Assembly (NCBI RefSeq): GCF_017894365.1
Contig: NZ_CP059467.1
Span: 1,116,001 to 1,180,000 of the forward strand
Direction: 5' to 3'
Source: Aromatoleum bremense
GTDB lineage: Bacteria; Pseudomonadota; Gammaproteobacteria; Burkholderiales; Rhodocyclaceae
DNA length: 64,000 bases
Part shown: positions 10,787 through 16,983 of the stretch, one piece after another
Layout of the letters: every line of letters starts with the position of its first letter
How positions within the stretch are numbered: the stretch's first letter is position 1
Made by a program: the position numbers and the translations under genes
The notes under the pieces: generated by a model
Databases searched by the model: none
Seen by the model: the letters and a program-made list of their open reading frames with translations, nothing else
Told to the model about the DNA's origin: nothing

Positions 10787-11182
10787 TCAGGCTGCCCGGC
10801 GTGCCGGGATGCCGGCGAGCGCGGCGACGTCACCGATAACGACGATCGCGGGCGAAGCAAAGCCTTCCGCGGCGACGCGCGCCGGCAGTTCGGCGAGCGT
10901 CGCCGCGAGGTGCCCTTGCATGTCGGTCGGGCCGGAGGTGATTGCCGCCGCAGGGGTATCCGGCGGCAGGCCCGCGGCGATAAGCCGCGCGACGATGTTC
11001 AGCAGCCGCGCGAGCCCCAGGTGGATCACGAGGGTCGTGCCGCTTTTCGCGAGCGCCAGCACGTCGGCGCCGACCAGCCCGTCAGCGAGCGCCTCGTCGG
11101 CCTCCCCGAGCGCGCGGGCGGCACGCAACGTCAGCAGATCCACTGCGCCCGGTCCGGCTCCGACGATCAACACGTTGGCCAT
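10787..11182 (-). CDS. uroporphyrinogen-III C-methyltransferase remnant with large internal deletion
   Basis: First gene of the nitrate operon, in the position where a CobA/NirE-type SUMT supplies siroheme to NirB. Only 131 residues remain instead of about 250. The N-terminus (MANVLIVGAGPGAVDLLTLRAARALGEAD) and C-terminal part (SGTTLVIHLGLARLLNIVARL through SPAIVVIGDVAALAG) are clearly SUMT, but everything between residue ~45 and the SGTTLV strand is missing, including GGDPFVFGRG and the active-site segments. The frame is kept across the junction at ADVLALA-KSG, whose two flanks both have an ALA-type sequence in complete family members. It should be inactive as a methyltransferase, so siroheme must come from a complete enzyme elsewhere. 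Confidence 0.8.
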   Translation of the reverse strand: MANVLIVGAGPGAVDLLTLRAARALGEADEALADGLVGADVLALAKSGTTLVIHLGLARLLNIVARLIAAGLPPDTPAAAITSGPTDMQGHLAATLAELPARVAAEGFASPAIVVIGDVAALAGIPARRAA

Positions 11183-11192
11183 GATCGAACTC

Positions 11193-11250
11193 CAAAAACG
11201 AAAAAAGGAAGCCGCACCAAATGCCCCCGGAAGCTCCCCTTCGGGAGAAG
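11193..11250 (-). promoter_or_regulatory. possible attenuator in the nitrate-operon leader
   Basis: In the predicted leader RNA a CTCCC/GGGAG hairpin (11234-11247) is followed by a second weak pairing region and two T-tracts (six T at 11206-11201, five at 11198-11194) just before the first start codon. Such a terminator-like leader is where NasT/NasR-type antitermination acts in nitrate operons of other proteobacteria. The second stem is imperfect, so this is tentative. Confidence 0.3.
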
Positions 11251-11329
11251 CGACGCACGCCGTGGTCCGCATGCATTGCGTCAGGCGCTGCACCGGAGCC
11301 TCATTGCCCCGACCTGTATTTCAGTTATC

Positions 11330-11344
11330 GCAAGACCGGTGCCA
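11330..11344 (-). promoter_or_regulatory. sigma-54 promoter of the nitrate-assimilation operon
   Basis: The reverse strand reads TGGCACCGGTCTTGC, an exact match to the -24/-12 consensus TGGCAC-N5-TTGC of RpoN promoters. Transcription should start near 11318, giving a leader of roughly 136 nt before the first gene. Regulation by nitrogen status through NtrC is inferred from the upstream sites. Confidence 0.8.
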
Positions 11345-11432
11345 GCTTCGTTTAAATACACCAACACATTGTTTTAAATGTAATTTTCAGACAAACAGCA
11401 ATCGAAAGAGGCGATTACCGGCTCACATCGGG

Positions 11433-11479
11433 GTCACCAATCCGGTGCATCGTTCGGCATGCTGCACCACAACATTGCG
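11433..11479 (-). promoter_or_regulatory. two NtrC-like enhancer sites
   Basis: On the reverse strand TGCACCGGATTGGTGAC (11449-11433) matches the NtrC consensus TGCACC-N5-GGTGCA in nearly all conserved positions. A second, weaker site, CGCAATGTTGTGGTGCA, lies at 11479-11463 with one perfect half. Their centres are 30 bp apart, three helical turns, and about 123 and 153 bp upstream of the predicted start, the usual layout of NtrC enhancers. Confidence 0.6.
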
Positions 11480-11513
11480 CGAGGCACCGACAGGCGCGCT
11501 CCTCATGCATGCA

Positions 11514-12114
11514 TCAGCGCCGGCTTTCCGGTTCGACGCCGGCGCGGCGCACGGCGATGCTCTCCACCTTGCGCTGCTTCTCGTGCAGGAAACTCAGCAC
11601 TTCGTGCCGGTAGTGGTTGTAGCGGGCGTCGTCGGCGAGCGCGACCGTCAGCCGCAGCCCTTCGCCCAGGCGCAGGCCGAGACTATAGAGGGGTGGAGAA
11701 AAAGACGCGGTAACTGAGTACCTGCGTGGCCAGAAAAATCCGCTCGGTCTCCTCGACCGTGACGATGTCCGGCAGGCGCTGTGACCGCGGCGGCTTGATC
11801 AGACCCGGCGCCACCCAGGGCTTCTTCAGCACGTGCTCGTGATAAAACTTGAGACCATACAGATCGAGCTTGACCGAACTCCACGAGTGCGTCTCGCGCA
11901 GGTCGGTGAAGTAATCCATCAGGTCGGCCTCGGTCAGATCGTCGGTTCGATGATCAAAGTAGTCTCCAACCCGGCGGATGGCGCGCGAATACGCCTCGAT
12001 CGTCTTCGGCTGCAAGCCCTTGAGCTTCAGGCGCTTCTGGTGCAGCGCGTAGTTCTTGTCGAAGATCGTAGCTGCGACAGCGAACATGTCTTCCATCTTG
12101 CGGCAACCTCGCAT
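11514..12114 (-). pseudogene. truncated, frameshifted tyrosine recombinase
   Basis: The frame from 12114 to 11690 encodes the N-terminal SAM-like core-binding domain of a phage-integrase family recombinase (LKGLQPKTIEAYSRAIRRVGDYF, VLKKPWVAPGLIKPPRSQRLPDIVT) up to the start of the catalytic domain. It then stops at FFSTPL. One extra C in a C-run explains this: the next frame continues LYSLGLRLGEGLRL, the expected first catalytic block. That frame soon diverges into sequence I do not recognise and ends at 11514, so the R-H-R-Y catalytic half is missing. It resembles recombinases carried with IS91-type elements more than integron integrases. Non-functional. Confidence 0.75.
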
Positions 12115-12204
12115 TCGTCATGAATATCCCTCGACTGAGGGGCGAGGCGGCATCTTGACTTCAACACGACTGCAGCACCGGGGTTTCCTCCGCGTAGCGG
12201 CTTC

Positions 12205-12260
12205 GTCCAACCCGGCGCTGCAGCCGACGGCTACGCCGCGGCTGAGCTTTCACGTTGGCA
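12205..12260 (+). repeat. attC recombination site (left)
   Basis: This 56-bp site starts with R'' GTCCAAC (RYYYAAC) and ends with GTTGGCA, an imperfect R' (GTTRRRY). The inner arms pair as GCT[G]CAGCCG with CGGCTGAGC, leaving one unpaired G, the extrahelical base typical of attC sites. It ends 15 bp before the start codon of the RcsF-like gene, as expected for the attC of the preceding cassette. Confidence 0.75.
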
Positions 12261-12275
12261 CCAGGAGAGCGAAAG

Positions 12276-12665
12276 ATGCGTATTCGACATGAGACTCCAT
12301 TGTTTGTCATGCTTCTGACGCTCGTAATCTCAACTGGGTGCGCTACCAATCCTGATGTTGGAACCCTTACGAGCGATCAACGTGCCGGGGTTGCCTCGAT
12401 GGAGGTTGTGCGTGGCGCGACTACACGGTCGCATACCATTCTCGGTGCCGTTAAGGGGATTTCGTGCCATCGCAATGCTTATCAACGCCAACAACTCACC
12501 GAGGCCGAGGCAATTGAAGGAGTGAAGCTACGAGCCGCTTCACTTGATGCTGATGCAGTCGTCAACGTAGTCTGTCAAGACAACTCCGGCATGGACTGGG
12601 TAAACAATTGCTGGTCGTCGATTGTTTGTGTCGGTGACGCCGTTCGATACAAGGACAGACGGTGA
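12276..12665 (+). CDS. RcsF-like lipoprotein on an integron cassette
   Basis: Predicted exported lipoprotein of 129 residues. The start at 12276 has AGGAG upstream; a type II signal peptide (PLFVMLLTLVISTGC) ends at a lipobox cysteine. The C-terminal half resembles the RcsF fold: VKGISCHRN, a helix (LTEAEAIEGVKLRAASLDADAVVNVVC) and a Cys-rich end (NNCWSSIVCVGDAVRY), consistent with the disulfide-bonded domain of RcsF. In enterobacteria RcsF is the outer-membrane stress sensor for the Rcs phosphorelay; there is no evidence that this homologue does the same. It overlaps the next gene by four bases (GTGA), so the two are probably translated together. Confidence 0.75.
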   Translation: MRIRHETPLFVMLLTLVISTGCATNPDVGTLTSDQRAGVASMEVVRGATTRSHTILGAVKGISCHRNAYQRQQLTEAEAIEGVKLRAASLDADAVVNVVCQDNSGMDWVNNCWSSIVCVGDAVRYKDRR

Positions 12666-13033
12666 TTTCTATTGAGGCACTCTCCGAAATGGTCGCCTCG
12701 TGGGCCAAGTCACAGCCTATTGTCGAGAAGGCGTACCTGTTTGGAAGTCGTGCCAAGGGCAACGCCAAATGCGACAGCGATCTCGATGTCGCCATTGAAC
12801 TCACCCCACGGCGGGGTGACTCCGGCCCTCTTGCCACTTGGATTGCCGAAGCGGCCCACCTTCGCACGTCAATTTCGTCGCACATTCCACTCACAGTCGA
12901 CCTGCAGTGGCACGGGGACGCCATTGATACGCCGGTTGTTCACGCAGGGCTCGCCGGCGGAAGCCGCCTCGTTTACGAGCGGTCAGCCCAACCAGACGCT
13001 GCACGGGACGCTCCGCAAGCGTCGCGCCCCTGA
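12662..13033 (+). CDS. minimal nucleotidyltransferase (MNT) domain protein
   Basis: A 123-residue protein with the polymerase-beta-like nucleotidyltransferase signature GSRAKGNAKCDSDLDVAIEL near residues 28-47 (GSxA and DxD metal-binding acids) and a third acidic strand (PLTVDLQW). MNT proteins are often antitoxins paired with HEPN toxins, but no HEPN gene is adjacent; here the partner is a lipoprotein. It starts with GTG inside the stop of the lipoprotein gene. Its last ~16 codons are read from the attC site, as is common for cassette genes, so the tail is probably not functional. Adenylyl- or nucleotidyl-transfer activity is inferred from the motif. Confidence 0.8.
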   Translation: MISIEALSEMVASWAKSQPIVEKAYLFGSRAKGNAKCDSDLDVAIELTPRRGDSGPLATWIAEAAHLRTSISSHIPLTVDLQWHGDAIDTPVVHAGLAGGSRLVYERSAQPDAARDAPQASRP

Positions 13034-13048
13034 GCGATTACGTTAGAC
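12986..13048 (+). repeat. attC recombination site (right)
   Basis: This 63-bp site has perfect core sites: R'' GCCCAAC and R' GTTAGAC. The arms pair as CGCT[G]CA with TGAGCG around an extrahelical G, and the tip is a perfect GACGCT/AGCGTC hairpin with loop CCGCA. Orientation matches a cassette whose genes read rightward. Confidence 0.8.
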
Positions 13049-13063
13049 CTTGGACCAAGCATC

Positions 13064-13177
13064 ATGAGAGTCCGGAAAGAAGTCCGAAGGACCAAGATCT
13101 CCACCACAGGCGTTTTGCTGGAACTGCGCTTTGTACATCAATCACTCGTGCGCGCAACACCCTCAAGATCGCGGTGA
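13064..13177 (+). CDS. short ORF of a truncated following cassette
   Basis: A 37-codon ORF starts 16 bp after the right attC, the distance typical for cassette genes. The product is basic (MRVRKEVRRTKISTTG...) with no recognised domain. The cassette lacks its own attC and abuts the 3' end of rlmB, so it looks truncated. It may be non-coding. Confidence 0.2.
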   Translation: MRVRKEVRRTKISTTGVLLELRFVHQSLVRATPSRSR

Positions 13178-13205
13178 TTGGCAGCGCGTTGTTGACAAAG
13201 GGGGG

Positions 13206-14114
13206 TTAGTGTCCGCGCTGGCGCCGCGCCTCGAACAGGCAGATGCCGCTCGCGACCGAGACGTTCAGGCTCTCGACGGTGCCGAGCATCGGGATGCGCG
13301 CCAGTTCGTCGCAGGTCTCGCGCGTGAGCCGGCGCAGGCCGTCGCCTTCGGCGCCGAGAACCCACGCGACCGGCCCTTTCTGGTCGACTTCGTACACCGA
13401 TTTATCCGCTTCGCCGGCCGCACCGACGACCCAGATGCCCGCTTCTTGCATTTCGCGCAGCGCGCGGGCGAGATTCGTCACGGTGACGTACGGCACGCTG
13501 TCCGCCGCGCCGCTGGCGACCTTGATCGCGGTCGCGTTGAGGCCGACCGCGCGGTCCTTCGGCGCCACGACCGCGTGCGCGCCGGCGGCGTCCGCGACGC
13601 GCAAGCAGGCGCCGAGGTTATGCGGGTCCTGCACGCCATCGAGCACCAGGATCAGCGCATTTTCCTCCAGCACTTCAAGGACGTCGGCGAGTTTCAGCTC
13701 GCGGCTGCGCGCATCGACGCGGGCGACGACCCCCTGGTGGCGGCGTGTGCCGACCATGCCGTCAAGACGCTCCGCCTCAGCCTGGATCAGGCGCACGTTC
13801 TGCGACTCGGCGAGCCGGACGACGTCTTTCGCACGCGCATCGGTGCGCTGTGCGGATAGATAAAGCTCGAACACCGCCTCCGGGTCGCGTCTCAGCTTGC
13901 CGAGCACGGCATGGAAACCGTAGATCAGCCGCGACTCTCCCCGGCCTTCACGGGCCGCAGGCGCCTCGGGAGCGTCTCCCGCGTCGGACTCCTCGTGAGT
14001 TCGTGTCGGGCCCCGGCTGTTCGCGGCGGGGCCGGCGTCGCGCTGATGCGCCGGGCGCCTGCCAGCTGCCGTCGTGTGGATCGGGCGTTGATTGCTTGAG
14101 GGCTTGTTAGCCAC
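13206..14114 (-). CDS. rlmB: 23S rRNA 2'-O-methyltransferase (SpoU family)
   Basis: TrmH/SpoU-family enzyme methylating G2251 of 23S rRNA in relatives. The family core begins at [14 protein letters not shown] near residue 55 (SpoU substrate-binding domain), with the knotted SAM-binding motifs [29 protein letters not shown] and [19 protein letters not shown] at the C-terminus. From GTG 14114 the protein has 302 residues, about 50 more than usual, with a basic, low-complexity N-terminal extension. No in-frame ATG exists nearer the core, and the GTG overlaps the rnr stop by 8 bp, suggesting translational coupling. Confidence 0.93.

Positions 14115-16685: not shown

Positions 16686-16770
<85 letters not shown>

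Positions 16771-16898: not shown

Positions 16899-16983
<85 letters not shown>

Follow-up and report, generated by a model that had tools for sequence, protein, structure and literature searches.

How did two integron-type recombination sites with a gene cassette between them come to lie in this part of the Aromatoleum bremense chromosome, and what adjoins them? The window analysed here, a stretch of 64,000 nucleotides, is C1:1116001-1180000 in a genome that consists of a single contig of 4.38 Mb. Across the locus the order is nirB (-), a shortened cobA-like gene (-), an int fragment (-), attC1, two ORFs (+), attC2, rlmB (-) and rnr (-). The names nirB, cobA, rlmB and rnr, as well as mfd below, are those we assume from reading the ORFs; that of the cobA-like gene is backed by a tetrapyrrole methylase domain. 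Judged from sequence comparison, the region is probably a stranded piece of an integron cassette array (CALIN); the end of an IS91-family element carrying an int gene (IS91-int) abuts attC1 exactly at its R'' core. The features are as follows:

11641-12204, minus strand: 5' part of an IS91-family int+tnpA element, broken off at about 11641 (BLAST alignment to copies spans 11641-12256)
11701-12111, minus strand: int (tyrosine recombinase), truncated N-terminal part (Phage_int_SAM_4, 58.3 bits)
12205-12260, plus strand: attC1, 56 nt, R'' GTCCAAC, R' GTTGGCA (R1 model, 40.6 bits)
12255-13042, plus strand: gene cassette, 788 bp, from the TT of attC1 R' to the G of attC2 R'
12276-12665, plus strand: RcsF-like lipoprotein gene, 129 aa (PF16358, 29.9 bits, cut-off 29)
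12662-13033, plus strand: MNT-type nucleotidyltransferase gene, 123 aa, GTG start (PF18765, 37.3 bits; PF01909, 29.3 bits)
12986-13048, plus strand: attC2, 63 nt, R'' GCCCAAC, R' GTTAGAC (R1 model, 49.0 bits)
13049-13212, no strand: stretch between attC2 and the conserved flank

Two attC sites and a two-gene cassette

An earlier note, made from the letters alone, had described both sites with their core boxes, paired arms and extrahelical G. The R' of attC1 departs from GTTRRRY at two positions. In one arm of each site the extrahelical base is a G on the top strand (attC1, GCT[G]CAGC vs GCTGAGC; attC2, CGCT[G]CA vs TGAGCG), and the two sites are spaced 781 bases apart. For scoring we used our own covariance model, R1, in place of that of IntegronFinder. 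R1 was trained on 16 attC near intI from eight other genomes of the same family, the window genome being excluded. In 149 kb it placed both sites, on the plus strand only, at E 2.3e-9 (attC2) and 2.8e-7 (attC1), and genome-wide at 6.7e-8 and 8.2e-6, respectively. Other sites outside the training set scored 76.7 (L012), 69.0 (L013) and 53.3 bits (L010), compared to 49.0 and 40.6 bits in the window. As a negative control, attC scans over 155 kb of the same locus from 10 congeners gave a single R1 match at E 1.2 and nothing else. By structure-model score, both attC sites are thus confirmed as genuine, as the earlier note had them, and neither failed.

Simpler tools performed less well. An Rfam search of the window region gave no match at the attC pair. 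A hand-written core-site scan, which served solely to choose the training sites for R1, missed attC1 because of its deviating R' and gave attC2 a score of 17, inside the shuffle range. Folding alone set the bottom strand of attC1 apart from shuffles (z -3.2), and attC2 folded no better than shuffles (z -0.4).

The enclosed unit had been taken for one cassette. A cassette it is, yet not a single-gene one: its two ORFs overlap by four bases (GTGA), and the stop codon of the second lies within attC2. The lower GC content ascribed to it was also borne out, with 57.3% G+C as against 66.0% for the window, a value equally low in 1.7% of windows of the same size. The RcsF-like protein has 67 homologues at E<=0.001 and the MNT-type protein 11. 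Homologues of both genes occur on records of equal size (716182, 7225, 1504 and 1032 bases, the last of which could come from the window itself), an indication that the two genes move as a unit. A type VII toxin-antitoxin (MntA) identity for the second gene was considered and rejected, the MntA model giving 38.6 bits, under its cut-off of 60, and the cassette partner being RcsF-like rather than HEPN. Plasmid DNA searches returned no match with the cassette and one weak 82-base match only with 1.75 kb. With the MNT protein, tblastn against plasmids found 11 records at 37-48% identity; the annotation of the two inspected held nothing integron-like. Downstream, 13049-13212 had no BLAST match among the other loci compared and may represent the beginning of a following cassette since lost.

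The closest counterpart is found in Aromatoleum anaerobium LuFRes1, where the cassette pair stands first in a chromosomal integron. There it adjoins an intI fragment beside mfd and has a well-formed attC (L013:5711-5773). The window and LuFRes1 cassettes align without gaps over 781 columns at 80% identity, and their boundaries agree, so that a unit bounded by its own attC recurs within an integron.

The locus and its integron context

In the congeners this locus looks different. The right flank is conserved from base 13213-13215 in 16 other genomes of the genus (17 with its own), left-flank matches stop at 11194-11496 in the 10 congeners compared, and between the flanks these 10 carry 6.0-13.1 kb of other DNA. 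By tblastn, both the cassette and the int fragment are absent at the locus in 10/10 congeners. With the flanks conserved and cassette and int fragment absent from the congeners, we conclude that the insert is specific to this strain and took the place of native DNA that was lost. The earlier note would have given up its reading had the same sequence been ordinary DNA in many relatives, which the 10/10 absence of the cassette does not bear out. Two further observations concern the flanks. Beside nirB, the cobA-like gene (10787-11293, minus strand) seems internally deleted, its halves matching at least ~330 bases apart in five congeners, and at 16686-16770 and 16899-16983 lie tandem tRNA-Leu(CAG) genes with equal scores.

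Neither intI nor attI is present beside the array, and no match to the intI model TIGR02249 over its cut-off of 265 was found anywhere in the genome. Across the family, by comparison, 81 of 121 genomes match at E <= 1e-30 and 74 exceed the cut-off. The clearest intI fragment in the window genome lies at C1:4206962 (142 bits, positions 1-131 of 315, one internal stop). Two short intI-like fragments (1579299, 54.5 bits; 3802374, 46.1 bits) were judged to be intI by eye, since other tyrosine recombinases also match the model (14/14 control genomes). Genome-wide, R1 gave at least nine matches at E <= 0.0011 and two at E above 5, with 150 of 6237 first-look candidates scored. At least seven further attC are among them: 3799717 and 3797403 (minus strand), 3409728, 3776661, 4207901 and 4211470 (plus strand) and 1429876 (minus strand, 43 nt). 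Three of these are solitary (C1:3409728-3409797, 3776661-3776747 and 1429876-1429918), remote from each other and from the intI fragments.

The minimum for a CALIN is two attC. As described in PMC9024848, a CALIN is a cluster of attC sites without an integron integrase. The window resembles this type in its two same-direction attC around a cassette, 781 bases apart, without an intact integrase adjoining and without a TIGR02249 match over the cut-off; it differs in having two sites only, one of them with an IS91-int end fused to its R''. The CALIN-like remnant proposed in the earlier note is therefore upheld, with both sites scored by R1 and the two-gene cassette first in a relative's integron. 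"CALIN-type" is the fitting term because no intI over the cut-off was found, yet intI fragments and seven further attC are there. The proposed genome search thus brought to light fragments and additional attC rather than a full-length intI. The alternative mentioned by the earlier note, capture from another replicon, is possible.

The integrons beside mfd in the window genome (L010:1-3455) and in LuFRes1 (L013:2918-6584) are 96.5% identical through a broken intI to the attI crossover. Past this point their first cassettes differ, and the alignment resumes beyond the array. Since they share a broken intI yet differ in cassettes, cassettes appear to have changed without an intact integrase in cis; an array swap by homologous recombination, or IntI in trans, would account for it as well. 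Between mfd and the intI fragment, two small ORFs (L001:765-1455) look by eye like an MNT/HEPN toxin-antitoxin pair.

An IS91-int end at the core of attC1

The statement that no integrase is visible stands for an intact IntI, but it overlooked the recombinase fragment at 11701-12111 on the minus strand. This fragment, a single copy in the window genome, is 49% identical to an integrase adjoining an IS91 transposase on NZ_LT985243.1. We discarded the idea of a decayed IntI: the three relatives inspected first adjoin an IS91-type or other transposase, and a full-length relative has no IntI insertion. In L116, L117 and L118 a transposase gene comes next after int, and by model it is of the IS91 type in L116 and L117; of these two genes the window keeps part of int alone. 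Read on the minus strand, the relic ends in GTTGGACGAAGCCGC, which overlaps the R'' box of attC1, and the R'' heptamer is common to attC1 and the element end. The 5' end GTTGRACGAAGCCGC thus sits at the R'' core of attC1, and because the fragment is joined there, the original gene of attC1 is gone.

On the E. coli plasmid NZ_LT985243.1 an IS91-int element is seen between aadA1 and an attC, which we take to be that of aadA1. With int read forwards, the left junction consists of the attC body and then G/TTGAACGAAGCCGCTTTGCGG (slashes mark junctions), and the right junction of GTTCAAC, a hairpin, and then G/TTAGAC and the aadA1 end. The window holds a left end of the same kind, fused to attC1.

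How general is this position? A protein search of 199 family genomes yielded 14 places in 12 genomes. Nine had a readable 5' end, and in eight of them, the window included, an R1 attC lay exactly at the junction and opposite to int; the ninth (L141) is damaged (GTC for GTT), shows half an attC by eye without an R1 match, and was scored as a miss. Four of the other five places had no end in the stretch covered and one was left out. A pattern search of 369 class genomes yielded 22 places in 16 genomes, from which the window and six G522 places (L156, L159-L163) were removed, the latter because their context is without GTT and int. In the 15 remaining ends, seven of which had int readable within the stretch covered, an R1 attC at the junction was found at E < 0.01 in five (four inverted, L143 not), weakly (E about 0.5) in two and not at all in eight. 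The plasmid sample comprised six records with an int identity of >=60%: L116 (E 4.8e-8) and L176 (E 0.054) had an R1 attC at the end, and L117, L174, L175 and L180 had none. R1 scores long Vibrio-type attC poorly. By eye, some of the ends without an R1 match resemble such a site (L174), and others show no such resemblance (L117, L153 and L155).

Pooled over the three samples, attC is opposite to the element in 14 of 15 R1-supported junctions; in L143 both share one orientation. In a structural test of 31 junctions, 14 reached p<=0.05 and eight p<=0.01. L064, with one base changed in the end motif and no R1 match, came from a different search and stands outside all counts. The ends differ, and R1 finds no attC, in four distant relatives (L118, L177, L178 and L179), whose int is 31-40% identical. 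At the opposite side, a 3' end of GGGCTYGTYCAAC plus a hairpin was present in 10 of 18 loci of one set and, by eye, in four of seven of another, with GTT following directly in 13 of 14 such loci (the exception being L133). With the far core of the host, the right flank paired better than the element end did in two of five cases and worse in three. Taken on these sequence comparisons, this IS91-int clade tends to sit exactly in attC recombination sites. An E. coli IncC plasmid carries one copy inside a resistance integron; for the L116 element, no match was found in E. coli complete genomes, a collection that may omit near records. At L171:1148-1615 (G405:C227) a 463-base element with both IS91-int ends sits at an attC and is too short for int and tnpA, possibly a non-autonomous form.

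The enzymes of the element are of two kinds. By its model score (344 bits) and its Y2_Tnp and zinc-binding domains, TnpA belongs to the IS91 transposases. When Int of L116 is aligned to a Xer-like structure, inspection by eye recovers the residues R, K, H-x-x-R, H and Y. Against the XerA, XerD and IntI models, Int scores 170, 159 and 154 bits in L116 and 187, 169 and 170 bits in L117, about equal in L116 and in both cases below every cut-off. An assignment to IntI was rejected, as TIGR02249 gives 154.4 (L116) and 170.3 (L117) against its cut-off of 265. Where IntI4 (2a3v) has 57 residues between matched stretches, the IntI-specific insertion, the element has 17, so that ~40 are missing.

Origin of the block and its place among attC-associated elements

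Four other explanations have to be weighed. That GC-rich DNA produced both palindromes by chance, and that the block is ordinary chromosome, is hardly conceivable: the simple scan did stay within its shuffles and attC2 folded no better than shuffles, but the R1 E-values with their clean control, and a homologous unit with equal boundaries in the LuFRes1 integron that is absent from the locus in relatives, speak against it. IntI might also have put the cassette directly into a secondary (non-integron) site, with no array remnant involved. The missing attI and intI and the flanks of ordinary chromosome agree with this scenario; a single event, however, leaves one attC, and attC1 with its IS91-int end means that two or more attC must have arrived or come together at this spot, which renders it very improbable.

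The remaining two explanations concern the element rather than the cassette. If the IS91-int unit were an ordinary passenger cassette moved by IntI, its 3' end would be a normal attC and the element not attC-seeking. R'', hairpin and G/TT at the 3' end are indeed as in attC, L143 is oriented like its attC, and PMC12772301 concludes that ISCR28, which has an attC at its gene or immediately behind it, was shuffled passively. Ordinary cassettes face as their neighbours do, though, while inversion, with the junction at R'', is seen in 14 of 15 R1-supported cases, and the element has its own recombinase; we thus regard a passenger cassette as rather unlikely. The known target tetranucleotides of IS91 are GAAC and CAAG. 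An IS91-type (HUH) transposase alone could therefore pick GRAC beside a hairpin, with Int playing no part in integration, and the end, reading GRAC/GAAGCCGC, recalls these targets; the distant relatives L177 and L178, without attC, also show GRAC before the end. Against it, L116, the one host with a familiar attC seen from both sides, has GTTAGAC as its right flank, and for this reason GAAC seems to be the element's own and only GTT common. Exact insertion at a recombinase core, moreover, fits a tyrosine recombinase, and the transposase acting alone is unlikely.

In the preferred reading, a stranded cassette array, a cassette array would have arrived at this chromosomal spot, and an IS91-int element would have inserted at the R'' core of the attC of an upstream cassette, separating this attC from its gene. 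Later deletions may have taken away the upstream gene, the tnpA half, native genes and a portion of the cobA-like gene, so that the IS91-int end, attC1, the cassette and attC2 were left. Integration probably proceeds from a circular form of the element, whose attC-like 3' hairpin Int would join to the G/TT of a host attC, in most cases against the direction of the cassette, and the HUH-type transposase may provide the single strand that folds. That an IS91-type lineage couples single-strand production by rolling circle (HUH) to a tyrosine recombinase recognising folded attC, as a route independent of IntI, is a speculative and rather doubtful proposal, a hint of it being the different first cassettes behind the shared broken intI of the two mfd-side integrons. 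If true, the lineage would move itself and neighbouring cassettes where their own integrase is dead, scattering cassettes; and if attC is a substrate of the element Int, IntI may not be the only driver of cassette traffic. The cassette itself could in principle be excised by IntI supplied in trans, and it illustrates how integrons fall apart into dispersed orphan cassettes.

The relic suggests that one more kind of mobile element resides in attC, besides two others. Group IIC-attC introns use attC as their target and face the other way from the cassettes (PMC7923331), and IS1111-attC elements of the IS110 family likewise go into attC (cited in PMC3589745). Both are likewise attC-inserting mobile elements, and the introns share the opposite orientation, but their enzymes are unrelated: the element described here combines an IS91 transposase, a tyrosine recombinase and an attC-like end. 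ISCR28, near sul4, is similar in being an IS91-like element whose gene has an attC at it or immediately following; the passages of PMC12772301 at hand mention no int gene or R'' junction. With IntI the element Int shares the tyrosine recombinase type and about equal IntI, XerA and XerD scores; it differs in lying below all cut-offs and in the missing IntI4 residues. In a literature search that left most subscription papers outside its reach, two papers placed attC next to IS91-like elements, and a general attC preference of IS91-int elements was described in none.

ISShvi3 also carries an int. It has been named IS91-like (PMC9229058). IS91-family elements with int, such as ISAzo26 of EbN1 with its adjoining int, have the same order of int and then tnpA and the same zinc-binding and Y2 domains; the present clade differs by ending in GTTGRACGAAGCCGC and by its attC-like 3' site, the four distant relatives ending otherwise. 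On EbN1 plasmid 2, ISAzo26 (L178:2832-2990) adjoins a perfect palindrome, GACCCTTATGGAAAGCTTTCCATAAGGGTC, followed by GTTGGAC, which is not an attC; the wider IS91-int group may favour hairpins generally.
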